NCBI GenBank assembly: GCA_002687825.1
Contig: NZBI01000017.1
Location: forward strand, 1 to 57,964
Origin: Nanobdellota archaeon
GTDB lineage: Archaea; Nanobdellota; Nanobdellia; SCGC-AAA011-G17; ARS1403
Length of the DNA stretch: 57,964 nt
Direction of reading: 5' to 3'
Shown: piece by piece, positions 1,460 to 51,310 of the stretch
Layout: every line of letters starts with the position of its first letter
How positions within the stretch are numbered: the first letter of the stretch is position 1
The notes under the pieces: model-generated
Database searches by the model: none
What the model was told of the DNA's origin: nothing
Seen by the model: only the letters and a program-made list of their open reading frames with translations
Made by a program: the position numbers and the translations under genes

Positions 1460-2215
1460 TTATTCCTTTGATTCTTCTTTAGGAGGAGCTTCTTCACCTT
1501 CAGCTTTAGATTCAGCACCTTCTTCACCTTCAGCTGGTTCTTCACCTTCTTCACCTTCTTCAGTAGACTCTTCACCTTCAGCTGCTTCTGCTGCAGTTGC
1601 TTCTTCGATTTTCTTCTTTTCTGCTTCTTCAGCTTCTTTTTCAGCAAGTTCTTTTTCCATTTCTTTCTTGATTTCTTGTTGGATTGATTTTAGTTGTTTT
1701 TGTAATGTGGCTGCTTTTTCTTGAGATACTTCGGTAATTTCTTCGTTGATTTCTTTATCGAATTTTCCAGAATCAATATCTTTTCCAGTTTCAATGGAAT
1801 TCTTGCCTTCAACTAAAATTCCTGCTGAATTACAAGAACCTATTACGGATTTAACTGCTGATTTTAAATTATTAACTAGCATAGAATCTTGTTTCATTTT
1901 TGCAACTTTGATTACTTGTTCAATTCCCATATTTGCTATTTTGTTTTTGTTTGGTTCTCCTGAACCCTTATCAATTTTAAGTTCTGTTTTTATTAATTCG
2001 GAAATTGATGGAGAACCTACTTCAATGGTATAACTCTTATCATCTTCTACTTCAATATCTACTGGCACTTTCATTCCTTTGAAATTAGCTGTTTTTTCGT
2101 TTATTCCAGTAACTATCTCTTGGATGTTTACTCCTAGAGGTGACAAGGGCTGCGCTAAAGAAGCATTCGCCTTTGTCTGTCCTCCTTCTACAATTAGGTT
2201 TACCCTTGTTGACAT
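1460..2215 (-). CDS. rpl11: Large-subunit ribosomal protein uL11 with long acidic tail
   Basis: This is archaeal uL11, which binds 23S rRNA at the GTPase-associated centre at the base of the stalk. Residues 1 to about 160 match the family (VNLIVEGGQTKANASLAQPL, the PLGVNI segment, and the C-terminal rRNA-binding half ending near SAGILVEGK). The usual archaeal length is about 160 aa, but this protein is 251 aa. The last ~90 residues are a coiled coil followed by a Glu/Gly/Ala-rich acidic tail with repeated GEE units. The start overlaps the end of the endonuclease gene at 2200-3396 by 16 nt, so it must share that transcript or use a promoter inside it. Gene order spt5-L11 is the archaeal norm apart from that insertion. 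Confidence 0.95.
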   Translation of the reverse strand: MSTRVNLIVEGGQTKANASLAQPLSPLGVNIQEIVTGINEKTANFKGMKVPVDIEVEDDKSYTIEVGSPSISELIKTELKIDKGSGEPNKNKIANMGIEQVIKVAKMKQDSMLVNNLKSAVKSVIGSCNSAGILVEGKNSIETGKDIDSGKFDKEINEEITEVSQEKAATLQKQLKSIQQEIKKEMEKELAEKEAEEAEKKKIEEATAAEAAEGEESTEEGEEGEEPAEGEEGAESKAEGEEAPPKEESKE

Positions 2216-3396
2216 TTTCTATAATTATTTAGGTCGATTTTCTGTTTTTTTATTACTCTTAATAATAGCGGAATTTTCTCAATTGAAGGATTATTCCTTC
2301 CTTCTCTCCATTCTCTAATACTCCTATCTCCCATTTTTAAGGTTTTCGCTAAGGCTTTATGTGTATTTTTTTCCAATAATTGTGCGGTTATTTCATTCCA
2401 CTTGAATGTTTCTTTAATTTTCCAGTTTCTTAATAGCATATTATCTTCCTTTATTTTATCTTTGAATGGACTATTACTTTCTTTCCATAAAAATGGTAGG
2501 GAAATTGTTTCTAATTCTTTAGCGTTTTTTCCCTTTTTATATCGCCAAGATATGAAACTCGAAATATTTCTAACATTTGAACTTCCGATTATCTTAAAGA
2601 ATTTTAAAACTTCCTTTCTTGAATATACTCTTAGTTCTGCTCCTATTTTGTCCCACTGCAAGGAGAATTTTATGTTAATTAATTTAAGCGCATTTGACAT
2701 ATCTTCTATTAATTTTTTACATTTATTTGAGAATCTTATTCTTACAATTGGGGAATTGTCTCGAATTTCTAGATATCCATCTGTATCGAAATAACCTCTT
2801 AAGACGTGACTTAAGTATTCTTTTTTCTTGAAACACCATTTTGGAATTGTTGTTTGATTTCTTATCTTGTTTCCCGGTTTCCAACCAAATTTTTCTTCCA
2901 GGAATTTAATAAATGGCCTTGAATATGCCCTGATTTCTAATGTATCCTCATATTTTCTTAATGTTGTAGAAAGATTACACTTACATAATTTGTAGATTAG
3001 TTTCTTAACCCTTCTTTCCGCAAAATCTTTATCTAATTTCTTGTTAAGTGCTATAATTATACAAGTTCTTTGAATGCATCCATCTCCTAATAGAATGCCT
3101 GTTAATTCTGCCAAATCCTTTGAGTGGCTTAATTTTTGCGTTTTACTTTGTTCTCTCTTTTCAACTTCACCGAAATGTTCTTTACCATGAATAATTAGTT
3201 CAGAAACATTGAATTTATTCTTTTTTGTTATATCCAAAAATTTTTGCAATTTTTCTTTTCCTGGATATCTTGATGCATCTTCATATTGTCCTGTTGTTCT
3301 CCTTGGACTTCCCACTAATTTCCCTAGTTCTTTTTGTGTTATGCCTAACTTTCTTCGCAAACCATAAACTAAGAATTTAGATTCCCCTTTTTTCAT
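2200..3396 (-). CDS. Free-standing LAGLIDADG homing endonuclease with flanking HTH domains
   Basis: The 398-aa protein has an XRE-like helix-turn-helix at about residues 10-55, two LAGLIDADG motifs (LTGILLGDGCI near 99-109 and LRGYFDTDGYLE near 199-210, each with its catalytic Asp), and a second helix-turn-helix at the C-terminus (HKALAKTLKMGDRSIREW). LAGLIDADG enzymes cut long asymmetric DNA sites and spread their own gene. There are no intein splice motifs and no intron, so it is free-standing. It sits between spt5 and L11, normally neighbours, and its last 16 nt overlap the L11 start. A TATA box (3419-3426) and the 22-bp element at 3432-3453 lie upstream; the ATG is about 22 nt from the TATA box, so the mRNA is probably leaderless. 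Confidence 0.88.
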   Translation of the reverse strand: MKKGESKFLVYGLRRKLGITQKELGKLVGSPRRTTGQYEDASRYPGKEKLQKFLDITKKNKFNVSELIIHGKEHFGEVEKREQSKTQKLSHSKDLAELTGILLGDGCIQRTCIIIALNKKLDKDFAERRVKKLIYKLCKCNLSTTLRKYEDTLEIRAYSRPFIKFLEEKFGWKPGNKIRNQTTIPKWCFKKKEYLSHVLRGYFDTDGYLEIRDNSPIVRIRFSNKCKKLIEDMSNALKLINIKFSLQWDKIGAELRVYSRKEVLKFFKIIGSSNVRNISSFISWRYKKGKNAKELETISLPFLWKESNSPFKDKIKEDNMLLRNWKIKETFKWNEITAQLLEKNTHKALAKTLKMGDRSIREWREGRNNPSIEKIPLLLRVIKKQKIDLNNYRKCQQG

Positions 3397-3460: not shown

Positions 3461-3928
3461 TTATGCCAATTCTTCTTCATCCTCTGTTTCTCTTCTAATA
3501 ACTCTAACGGAATCTAATTTAACTGTAATTGGGATAGGCACTGCTGCCTCTAATAGTTCAACAATAATTTCCTCTTTGTCTTTATCTATTCTTGTAACTT
3601 TTGCACTTTCTCTCTTGAATGGTCCGGAAATAATTTCAACAACATCTCCTTTTTCTATATTGACTTGTGCTGTTACTTGTTCTAACATAGGTTCTATTTC
3701 TTTGAAATCTATTGGTTTTTTTAGTAGACCTCTAGCATATGGTACTCCTGCGAAAGCTTCATTTGCGTCAGCTTCAGTTTCTGCTTCTACGAAGATATAA
3801 CCTCGCATTCCATGAGATCTTATTACCGAGTAAACATTTAAACCGCCTTTTTGGATCTTTGAGATTATAAAATCCATTACCTGGTCTTCTCTATTTGCAG
3901 TTGTTCTTAAAGCGAAAATTTGTGTCAT
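3461..3928 (-). CDS. spt5: Transcription elongation factor Spt5 (archaeal NusG homologue)
   Basis: The 155-aa protein has an N-terminal NGN domain (residues 1 to about 85, with RSHGMRGYIFVEAE) and a C-terminal KOW domain (about 90-150, with EKGDVVEIISGPFKRESAKV). Archaeal Spt5 clamps DNA in RNA polymerase for processive elongation, normally with Spt4, and links to ribosomes through KOW. Its length fits the archaeal family. It starts 4 nt inside secE (ATGA overlap), the usual secE-spt5 pair. Downstream L11 is displaced by the endonuclease insertion. Confidence 0.95.
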   Translation of the reverse strand: MTQIFALRTTANREDQVMDFIISKIQKGGLNVYSVIRSHGMRGYIFVEAETEADANEAFAGVPYARGLLKKPIDFKEIEPMLEQVTAQVNIEKGDVVEIISGPFKRESAKVTRIDKDKEEIIVELLEAAVPIPITVKLDSVRVIRRETEDEEELA

Positions 3929-27391: not shown

Positions 27392-27523
27392 AGGGCCCGA
27401 TGGGATTTGAACCCATGATCGCCGCTTGCTACAAATCCAACTGCAGGTTCAGCTATCCTTTTTAGGAATATCGACTGCCTTGCCGGAGTGCCATGAAACG
27501 AATTTCATCTTGGCCACGAGCCC
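27392..27523 (-). tRNA. tRNA-Cys(GCA) with three bulge-helix-bulge introns
   Basis: The 132-nt gene reduces to a standard 73-nt tRNA-Cys after removing three introns: 27488-27508 (21 nt, D-loop after position 15), 27448-27471 (24 nt, position 30/31) and 27427-27440 (14 nt, canonical 37/38). Each boundary shows a 4-bp helix with two 3-nt bulges (GCCA/TGGC, CAGT/GCTG and CTGC/GTAG), cut after the second bulge base. The mature form has a GGGCTCG/CGGGCCC acceptor, D-loop with G18-G19, anticodon stem GTCGC/GCGGC, anticodon GCA (27442-27444), TTCAAAT T-loop and U73, the usual discriminator for Cys. CCA is not encoded. Confidence 0.88.
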
Positions 27524-27539
27524 CTGTAGCTAAAGAACC

Positions 27540-28226
27540 CTAAATATAATTTAAAAGCCTTTCTCTTTCCTTTAATGTAGTTTTTGGGATATAATAACCG
27601 TTGGTTTTCCAGAATAAAAATTTGCTAATATTCTTTGGACTACTGAATCCTATCTCTTTTATCCATTTTTCTAGCATCTTTTCTCCTGAAATGTATATTT
27701 TTATGGTCTTTCTGGAATCTGAGTTTATTGTTTGTACTTTGAATGATTTTTTTCTTAATATTTCTACCAATTGTACTGATAGATTTTTACTTGATGTTAC
27801 TATCTCTATTCTAGGATATGTTGGATACTTTGACTTTGGTTTGCTTCTTGAAAAATAAATGGAACCATCTGCTTCAAAAATTCCTCTTATTACATGTTTT
27901 GAGTATTTCCATGTAAGAAATTGATTTGGTATCCTAATAGTGAAGGTTTTCTTCCCAAATGGAAGTTTAAATTCGTTTATAAGAAACTCTACAAATTTTT
28001 TATTATCCGAATACAAAGTTATACCCTTACCTTTTTTATGCTGTCTGAACCTTATTTTGGGTTCTTTTTTAGATAATTTAAATATTGTTTTGCTTAACAT
28101 TGAAAAATATCTAGGATCTTCGGTTGCATTACCCGCTATTTCTAATCTGTACGTTCTATTTTTTGAATTGTAGATTATAGAACCATCACCAATAATAACT
28201 CCTATTAATTCACACACATCCTTCAT
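27540..28226 (-). CDS. Free-standing LAGLIDADG homing endonuclease 2
   Basis: A 228-aa single-chain enzyme with two LAGLIDADG motifs: ELIGVIIGDGSII (residues ~6-18) and VIRGIFEADGSIYF (~112-125); catalytic Asp/acidic residues are intact. It lacks intein motifs and helix-turn-helix extensions. It lies between tRNA-Arg(TCT) and tRNA-Cys, all on the minus strand, and stops 16 nt before the tRNA-Cys 5' end. A TATA-like TTTAATAA (28248-28255) is 21 nt from the ATG and the shared 22-bp element (28262-28283) lies just upstream, so it has its own, probably leaderless, promoter. Confidence 0.87.
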   Translation of the reverse strand: MKDVCELIGVIIGDGSIIYNSKNRTYRLEIAGNATEDPRYFSMLSKTIFKLSKKEPKIRFRQHKKGKGITLYSDNKKFVEFLINEFKLPFGKKTFTIRIPNQFLTWKYSKHVIRGIFEADGSIYFSRSKPKSKYPTYPRIEIVTSSKNLSVQLVEILRKKSFKVQTINSDSRKTIKIYISGEKMLEKWIKEIGFSSPKNISKFLFWKTNGYYIPKTTLKERERLLNYI

Positions 28227-28261
28227 AGAATCATTTAATGAATTTACTTATTAAAGCCTTA

Positions 28262-28283
28262 CGGAGGTATGGCGAGTATGTCG
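28262..28283 (-). promoter_or_regulatory. Shared 22-bp upstream element, copy 3 (before endonuclease 2)
   Basis: On the plus strand this reads CGGAGGTATGGC followed by GAGTATGTCG, then AGTGAAATTTAG, a flank also found in copy 5. It lies 6 nt upstream of the TATA-like box at 28248-28255 of the minus-strand endonuclease gene. Confidence 0.72.
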
Positions 28284-28303
28284 AGTGAAATTTAGAATAT
28301 AAA

Positions 28304-28410
28304 CGGGCCCGAAGGGATTTGAACCCTCGACCCCTAGCTTACTCCTCTTAAAATAGAAGGTTCACCACATATATTGTTCTAGTGCTCTATCCAAGCTGAG
28401 CTACAGGCCC
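28304..28410 (-). tRNA. tRNA-Arg(TCT) with two bulge-helix-bulge introns
   Basis: The 107-nt gene reduces to 75 nt after removing introns at 28361-28378 (18 nt, position 30/31) and 28340-28353 (14 nt, canonical 37/38). Each site has a 4-bp central helix (CACT/GGTG and CTTC/GGAG) and 3-nt bulges. The spliced anticodon arm is CTAGC-CTTCTAA-GCTAG with anticodon TCT (28355-28357). The D-loop has GGATA with A20, an arginine identity base; acceptor GGGCCTG/CGGGCCC; G73. A lysine reading (TTT) is possible only with a weaker stem. Confidence 0.83.
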
Positions 28411-50464: not shown

Positions 50465-50504
50465 CTAGTTTAGAAATAGTGTTTTTGAATATAAATGTTT
50501 TTAT

Positions 50505-50578
50505 TGGGCCTGCGAGGATTTGAACCCCGATCGCTCGGTCCGAAGCCGAGTACACTATCCAGATTATGTTACAGGCCC
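50505..50578 (-). tRNA. tRNA-Arg(TCG)
   Basis: A 74-nt tRNA without introns: acceptor GGGCCTG/CAGGCCC, anticodon arm CTCGG-CTTCGGA-CCGAG with anticodon TCG, T-arm CGGGG-TTCAAAT-CCTCG, and discriminator A. The D-loop has GGATA including A20, an arginine identity base. CCA is not encoded. The first 15 nt overlap the coding end of the endonuclease gene at 50564-51310. Confidence 0.93.
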
Positions 50579-51310
50579 ATTAAGTGAATTTGGATTTAAT
50601 GTACCTTTTAGTATATTTAATCTTTGCGAGTAAGTTGTATTAGTTGGACAAAAACCAAATTTTTCCCATATCAAAATTCTTGAGTTTTTTGTGGGGTTCT
50701 TAACACCAACTGTTTTTAACCATTTTTTAAGATTTGGTACACCACTGATTTGAATATTATAACTTAAGTTTTCAGTTTTCTTTTTTGGGTTGTATTTATA
50801 GAGTGTGAAATTAAAATTAAGACATTTTAGTATATTTGAAATTTCTTTTGATAATTCTTGGGATACTGTTGCACATGATATTCTGGGATAATAATCTTTA
50901 TTTTTTTTAAAATGAGAAGAATTATTTATTTTTTTGGTGAATCCTATGTGTCCATCTGTATCAAAGTAACCTCTTAAAAAAGAAGGTATTAAGAATTTTT
51001 TTTTAATTATAAAATCTGGAATTTTGATTATTGTTGATTTTTTCCCATAAGGAAATTGTAATTTTTCATGTGCGAATTCTATTACTTCTTTTTTTCTTAT
51101 TACAAAACCGTACGTATTTCTTCCTTTAAAGAATCTACCCTTGATATCTAGATCGAAAATTTTGTTGAATAAAGGGATTACATGTTTATTATAATAACTT
51201 TTTTCTTCTATATTGCCGCTAATATCCCATTCTCTTCTTCTACCATCATTTCTAAGATATCCATCACCTACATGAATCCCACAAATTTCTGCTATTTCAT
51301 TCGAAAGCAT
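50564..51310 (-). CDS. Free-standing LAGLIDADG homing endonuclease 3
   Basis: A 248-aa single-chain enzyme with motifs IAEICGIHVGDGYL (residues ~6-19) and FLRGYFDTDGHIGF (~111-124); both acidic residues are present. No intein or intron signs. The last four sense codons and the stop are formed by the first 15 nt of tRNA-Arg(TCG). A TATA box (TTTATAA, 51334-51340) lies about 22 nt from the ATG, and the shared 22-bp element (51347-51368) lies just upstream. Sequence and size resemble endonuclease 2 (27540-28226). Confidence 0.88.
   Translation of the reverse strand: MLSNEIAEICGIHVGDGYLRNDGRRREWDISGNIEEKSYYNKHVIPLFNKIFDLDIKGRFFKGRNTYGFVIRKKEVIEFAHEKLQFPYGKKSTIIKIPDFIIKKKFLIPSFLRGYFDTDGHIGFTKKINNSSHFKKNKDYYPRISCATVSQELSKEISNILKCLNFNFTLYKYNPKKKTENLSYNIQISGVPNLKKWLKTVGVKNPTKNSRILIWEKFGFCPTNTTYSQRLNILKGTLNPNSLNGPVT

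Follow-up and report, generated by a model that had tools for sequence, protein, structure and literature searches.

A three-intron tRNA-Cys gene next to a LAGLIDADG endonuclease gene in a Woesearchaeota-type DPANN archaeon: a candidate case of collaborative homing

Described systems and the tRNA-Cys locus

Multiple introns of the bulge-helix-bulge (BHB) type occur in tRNA genes of Thermoproteales, where signs of intron mobility have been noted, to judge from the accounts of the original studies (Sugahara 2008; Fujishima 2010) in PMC4090602 and PMC8450103; how archaeal tRNA introns move, including the mechanism of their transposition in Thermoproteales, is stated to be unknown (PMC4090602). 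Similar signs attend the three introns of a tRNA-Cys(GCA) gene in the 57,964-nucleotide (nt) stretch of contig NZBI01000017.1 analyzed here, referred to below as the window. Unlike in Thermoproteales, the host is a Woesearchaeota-type DPANN archaeon (an earlier sequence-only reading of the window had correctly suspected a DPANN-like genome) with a single splicing endonuclease gene of the alpha4 type, the tRNA-Cys gene adjoins a gene for a freestanding LAGLIDADG protein, and two relatives carry four introns in their tRNA-Cys genes.

In cyanophage S-PM2, the freestanding endonuclease F-CphI and the group I intron of psbA constitute a collaborative homing system (PMC6083498, Zeng 2009), in which the endonuclease gene likewise adjoins the intron-bearing gene, and the intron stops self-cleavage and gains mobility. 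That system, however, belongs to a phage and pairs a group I intron with an Endo VII-type enzyme, whereas the locus described here is part of an archaeal chromosome and pairs protein-spliced BHB introns with a LAGLIDADG protein whose DNA cleavage is predicted. Phage T4 SegB (PMC2988022) is a freestanding homing endonuclease that is encoded between tRNA-Arg and tRNA-Ile genes and targets the tRNA region, but it is a member of the GIY-YIG family and its system is devoid of tRNA introns. The closest solved relative of the window's LAGLIDADG protein by sequence profile is I-DmoI, which is also, together with I-Tsp061I, among the nearest by fold, both being two-motif monomers; the genes for these enzymes are located inside archaeal introns, whereas the gene described here lies outside the tRNA gene, whose introns are only 14 to 24 nt long. 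Finally, the model of integrase-driven tRNA disruption in Caldiarchaeum (PMC3293823) also proposes a mobile element as the cause of intron gain, but it involves an integrase instead of a homing endonuclease and concerns a single locus.

The tRNA gene alone is of a known type. The novelty would be in collaborative homing that involves archaeal tRNA introns, of which no account was found in the open-access literature; searches of that literature did not turn up LAGLIDADG genes associated with archaeal tRNA genes, either. We consider it probable (roughly 60%) that the tRNA-Cys locus is the seat of a mobile pair, an endonuclease and BHB introns, that would spread by collaborative homing. Extended to endonucleases of the whole class, such homing would be the DNA-level mechanism that has been missing for the transposition of tRNA introns and would account for tRNAs that contain three or four introns. 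The introns have a testable agent right beside them; endonucleases of its kind follow single tRNA isotypes through several families and beyond the order, and empty sites are available.

The tRNA-Cys gene and its splice sites

The tRNA-Cys gene (Table 1) is 132 nt long and shrinks to 73 nt upon removal of the introns. In the unspliced DNA of the window, it was called neither by ARAGORN nor by Rfam at its cut-off; the spliced 73-mer was recognized by ARAGORN as tRNA-Cys(gca) with U73, in agreement with the regular tRNA that the sequence-only reading had obtained by joining the exons. In a genome of the same genus (G001, locus L021), an intronless 73-nt tRNA-Cys gene with the same neighbors is collinear with the window's gene at all junctions. 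This orthologue and an automatic spliced alignment fix all junctions independently, none of the intron boundaries can be shifted, and the lengths and positions previously proposed for the three introns agree with both lines of evidence.

That the unspliced gene is missed by ARAGORN and at the Rfam cut-off could be taken to mean that it is a tRNA pseudogene in decay or results from misassembly. Such an explanation is extremely improbable, given the collinearity of every junction with the intronless orthologue, the compensatory changes in relatives (see below), and the lack of any other tRNA-Cys gene among those found. A second intact tRNA-Cys, named in the sequence-only reading as the finding that would expose a pseudogene, was looked for in the host genome (775 kb in 25 contigs, 87% complete) and was not found, and it is therefore unlikely that the gene is a pseudogene accompanied by an intact copy, even though the missing 13% of the genome still could hold one. 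The tRNA-Cys gene is predicted to be functional, with the alpha4-type endonuclease excising its three BHB-type introns.

A central helix of 4 bp forms at each of the three junctions (P = 0.006, 0.010, and 0.017 to 0.019, respectively, against shuffled introns), and introns 1 and 2 each form a 5-bp inner helix that was equalled in none of 20,000 shuffles. In intron 1, the partner of the central helix is the 5' strand of the D-stem, the outer helix is only 1 bp long, and the 5-bp inner helix carries the UUCG loop that had been described as a TTCG-capped stem. The 4-bp helix flanked by two 3-nt bulges, previously claimed for every junction, is present, with covariation, at 15/16 and 30/31; at 37/38, only the four central pairs held up, as this site lacks an inner helix and its 5' bulge belongs to a 10-nt loop. 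The 37/38 site thus fails the strict two-bulge motif and is a relaxed bulge-helix-loop, a recognized subtype of the archaeal tRNA intron motif. Its 5-bp outer helix forms only once the 30/31 intron has been removed, and splicing is therefore probably ordered, with the 30/31 intron excised before the 37/38 intron.

In relatives that have introns at the same positions, the helices at the splice sites have undergone compensatory changes. All introns at 15/16 (3/3), 30/31 (11/11), and 59/60 (9/9) retain the four central pairs, and all 11 introns at 30/31 keep at least 5 inner pairs, with both partners changing (CG to GC, AT to GC, TA to AT). The order has 17 introns at 37/38, 11 of them with just three central pairs.

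The type of the splicing endonuclease, which the sequence-only reading had suggested checking, was determined from a single gene for a 186-residue protein. Over 149 residues, it aligns without gaps to the alpha4 enzyme of M. jannaschii (1a79), leaving no room for a broad-specificity loop insertion in the aligned part (the N-terminal 37 residues are outside the alignment), and the Tyr, His, and Lys residues expected in an intact enzyme are present in the alignment, which points to the alpha4 type with a predicted tetramer assembly. Among the 61 sampled genomes of the order, 57 encode one splicing endonuclease and one encodes two; none was found in the remaining three. According to a review (PMC6379350), only the (alpha-beta)2 and epsilon2 enzymes efficiently remove relaxed introns. 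The coexistence of a single alpha4-type endonuclease with relaxed bulge-helix-loop introns is unexpected under the published specificity rules and raises the question of how a supposedly strict enzyme copes with relaxed motifs.

Table 1. Coordinates of the tRNA and endonuclease genes discussed in the text
Feature	Location	Strand	Remarks
tRNA-Cys(GCA) gene, three introns	27392..27523	-	reads as tRNA-Cys once spliced (73 nt); collinear with the intronless gene of the same genus
tRNA-Cys exon 1	27509..27523	-	15 nt, positions 1-15
tRNA-Cys intron 1	27488..27508	-	21 nt, position 15/16 (D-loop)
tRNA-Cys exon 2	27472..27487	-	16 nt
tRNA-Cys intron 2	27448..27471	-	24 nt, position 30/31, full BHB
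tRNA-Cys exon 3	27441..27447	-	7 nt, positions 31-37, holds anticodon GCA
tRNA-Cys intron 3	27427..27440	-	14 nt, position 37/38, relaxed bulge-helix-loop
tRNA-Cys exon 4	27392..27426	-	35 nt, positions 38-73, discriminator U73
Spacer holding the endonuclease gene	27524..28303	-	780 nt; same spacer 14 nt in G001
Predicted freestanding two-motif LAGLIDADG homing endonuclease	27540..28226	-	228 residues; Pfam LAGLIDADG_2/3, alignment, AlphaFold
tRNA-Arg(UCU), two introns	28304..28410	-	18 nt (28361-28378) at 30/31; 14 nt (28340-28353) at 37/38
Second tRNA-linked LAGLIDADG gene	50564..51310	-	overlaps 5' end of tRNA-Arg(UCG)
tRNA-Arg(UCG), intronless	50504..50579	-	neighbor of second LAGLIDADG gene
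Splicing endonuclease gene, alpha4-type	L001 1474-2034	-	186 residues
Four-intron tRNA-Cys gene (G022)	L114 1430-1567
Four-intron tRNA-Cys gene (G080)	L111 1427-1566

The LAGLIDADG endonuclease and its tRNA-linked relatives

The gene next to tRNA-Cys, which the sequence-only reading did not mention, is in our view the important part of the locus. It takes up the spacer that separates tRNA-Arg(UCU) from tRNA-Cys, and its stop codon lies 16 nt before the latter. The catalytic residues Asp14 and Asp120 are conserved in the alignment, and the AlphaFold model (mean predicted local distance difference test score, 89) matches I-Tsp061I, I-DmoI, and others; the two motifs, the acidic residues, and the modeled fold all suggest a LAGLIDADG homing endonuclease that is predicted to cleave DNA. 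In G001, where tRNA-Arg(UCU) and tRNA-Cys are both intronless, the two genes are separated by 14 nt with no endonuclease gene; this empty allele is missing both the freestanding endonuclease and the introns of the gene that it adjoins. The nearest relatives of the endonuclease are encoded in G022 (62% amino acid identity) and G036 (53%), two genomes of Candidatus Woesearchaeota from the same order as the window's genome and from two other families. Both occupy the same tRNA-Arg/tRNA-Cys spacer, 14 to 15 nt before a tRNA-Cys gene with the 30/31 and 37/38 introns. These two were the only hits in a contig scan for Cys-type endonucleases, and no endonuclease of this type was found in other genomes of the window's family. 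The window also encodes a 398-residue LAGLIDADG protein with a helix-turn-helix-like N terminus (2200-3396, minus strand), which is not tRNA linked and is flanked by genes for ribosomal protein L11-like (1460-2215) and NusG-like (3461-3928) proteins.

Linkage to tRNA genes is widespread among such proteins. All LAGLIDADG matches with E values up to 1e-5 were surveyed in eight genomes of the window's family, and 21 of the 28 lie no more than 150 nt from a tRNA gene, compared to the ∼6% expected if there are 45 tRNAs per 775 kb; locus L061 (score 26, no ARAGORN confirmation) was left out of the tRNA-adjacent count. The same tRNA scan of 11 splicing endonuclease loci, used as a control, gave no positives (0/11). 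Intron-bearing tRNAs were aligned with a custom spliced aligner whose scores reached a ceiling of ∼11 on reversed sequences and control loci, and the isotype calls by ARAGORN, often wrong for such genes, were redone on spliced sequences: the anticodon UCA first called at L066 was replaced by Arg-UCG after splicing. A pattern match at L105 (G028; score 11) proved to be a false positive in a coding sequence and was dropped.

In a tree of 57 endonucleases, the proteins group by the isotype of the adjacent tRNA across families, forming Cys, Phe, Ala, Ile, Tyr, and Arg-UCG clades; the Pro and Gly groups come from within the window's own family. Isotype changes on the tree number 19, versus 30 to 38 in 500 shuffles (46 labeled rows, 15 states). 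As a test, the tree was extended by the second tRNA-linked endonuclease of the window, encoded by a gene with a 3' end that runs into the 5' end of tRNA-Arg(UCG); as predicted, it was placed in the Arg-UCG clade (support, 100/99), which is also found in another family. The Ala-type endonuclease of G000 shares 76% identity with its counterpart in another family (leucyl-tRNA synthetases [LeuRS], 55%) and 68% with the one in its own family (LeuRS, 66%); these enzymes are thus more alike between families than within the window's family, which suggests horizontal transfer. The LAGLIDADG family shows this transfer pattern as well as sporadic presence and empty sites.

These patterns bear on the ordinary explanation, namely, that the multiple BHB introns were inherited vertically and the endonuclease genes reside near tRNAs because the flanks are permissive insertion sites. 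Archaeal tRNAs with up to three BHB introns are indeed known (PMC8450103), and tRNA flanks frequently serve as insertion sites, but the isotype-specific clades span families, and the other genomes of the window's family have neither this endonuclease nor the D-loop intron, which renders this explanation very unlikely.

A further LAGLIDADG group is found beside tRNA-Thr in other orders of the class (L261, L262, L263, L265, and L266), where some of the tRNAs contain introns and the 5' end of the tRNA is often overlapped. At L259 (G191), a LAGLIDADG gene is located between a tRNA with the CAU anticodon (Met-type) and an apparent copy of a tRNA 3' end.

Endonuclease genes and the 30/31 introns

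Three introns in one tRNA, which the sequence-only reading regarded as unusual for a DPANN genome, turned out not to be so in this order: 20 of its 42 tRNA-Cys genes contain introns, and at least five contain three or more. Those of G022 and G080 have four (at 15/16, 30/31, 37/38, and 59/60), which is above the archaeal maximum of three per tRNA published in the tRNAscan-SE 2.0 paper (PMC8450103). The 30/31 intron is present in 11 of the 42 genes and is nearly identical in the window, G005, G022, and G080. The D-loop (15/16) intron is confined to the window's genome, G022, and G080.

Among the tRNA-Cys genes (n = 42), the 30/31 intron is found in 4/4 genes with an endonuclease neighbor versus 7/38 without one (Fisher P = 0.003). 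Among the tRNA-Phe genes (n = 35), the respective fractions are 3/6 and 0/29 (P = 0.003); some intron is present in 6/6 tRNA-Phe genes with the endonuclease, and none of the 16 intronless ones has it. The 4/4 and 6/6 counts come from pattern-selected sets, to which G009 and L249 are exceptions. A prediction that the link extends beyond the order was borne out: of the ten best homologues there, nine adjoin tRNA-Phe or tRNA-Cys, and seven of these nine tRNAs carry a 30/31 intron, with L249 (intronless) and L253 being the exceptions.

A mechanism consistent with these data is that a freestanding LAGLIDADG endonuclease dedicated to the tRNA-Cys gene would cut within the anticodon arm of the intronless allele or close to it, and repair of the double-strand break from the donor would copy the endonuclease gene along with the introns, which would then be spliced in the cell. 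The donor would be protected by the 30/31 intron, which interrupts the target.

Several observations weigh against this reading. An alpha4 endonuclease is not expected to process a relaxed motif easily (PMC6379350). Endonuclease genes are found beside intronless tRNA-Cys in G009 (at 115 nt) and L249 (at 100 nt), and with G009 included, which was found outside the pattern, the P value for tRNA-Cys rises to 0.011. The P values for both isotypes ignore relatedness among the genomes. Seven tRNA-Cys genes carry the 30/31 intron without an endonuclease, and most tRNA-Ala genes and many tRNA-Ile, tRNA-Gly, and tRNA-Pro genes with an endonuclease neighbor are intronless; endonuclease genes can thus reside next to a tRNA gene that has no intron, and in those cases the donor must be protected in some other way. 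A general rule that an endonuclease neighbor means an intron was accordingly rejected; the link is specific to the Cys/Phe clade and its 30/31 introns, with exceptions.

The intronless neighbors would be accommodated if the endonuclease cut tRNA DNA and the donor were protected by the insertion of the endonuclease gene itself or by co-converted flanks, the introns being passengers or independent. The many tRNA-linked endonucleases next to intronless tRNA-Ala, tRNA-Ile, and tRNA-Gly fit this scheme, as does the precedent of SegB, which is encoded between tRNA-Arg and tRNA-Ile and targets the tRNA intergenic region (PMC2988022), and, by analogy, homing of this kind may apply to the Ala-type clades. 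For the tRNA-Cys locus it seems unlikely, as the Cys/Phe clade is tied to 30/31 introns for both of its isotypes and, within the class, outside the order as well. Introns could also have been selected or retained as resistance, because they destroy the sequence that an incoming endonuclease or integrase would attack, without being carried by the enzyme. The seven tRNA-Cys genes with the 30/31 intron and no endonuclease are compatible with that scenario, and a passage in PMC3293823 cites a similar idea for integrating elements; in different families, however, the endonuclease is accompanied by near-identical 30/31 introns and by the D-loop intron, which fits joint transfer better and makes resistance a distinctly less probable explanation. 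Collaborative homing of the endonuclease and BHB introns thus remains the preferred reading for the tRNA-Cys locus. Its extension to the whole class, with a freestanding LAGLIDADG family, dedicated to one isotype per lineage, driving the gain and spread of BHB introns, is a tentative proposal, to which we would give slightly less than even odds.

Other unusual tRNA genes were seen in the same data set. Two congeneric genomes have a tRNA-Cys gene (L122 in G044 and L123 in G017) that lacks a part of the acceptor stem, which is the 3' end in one genome and the 5' end with part of the D-arm in the other; these could be split or permuted genes, products of decay, or assembly errors. In G001, a probable tRNA-Gln(UUG) gene with three introns of 24, 30, and 15 nt (L050 1022-1163) adjoins a LAGLIDADG gene.
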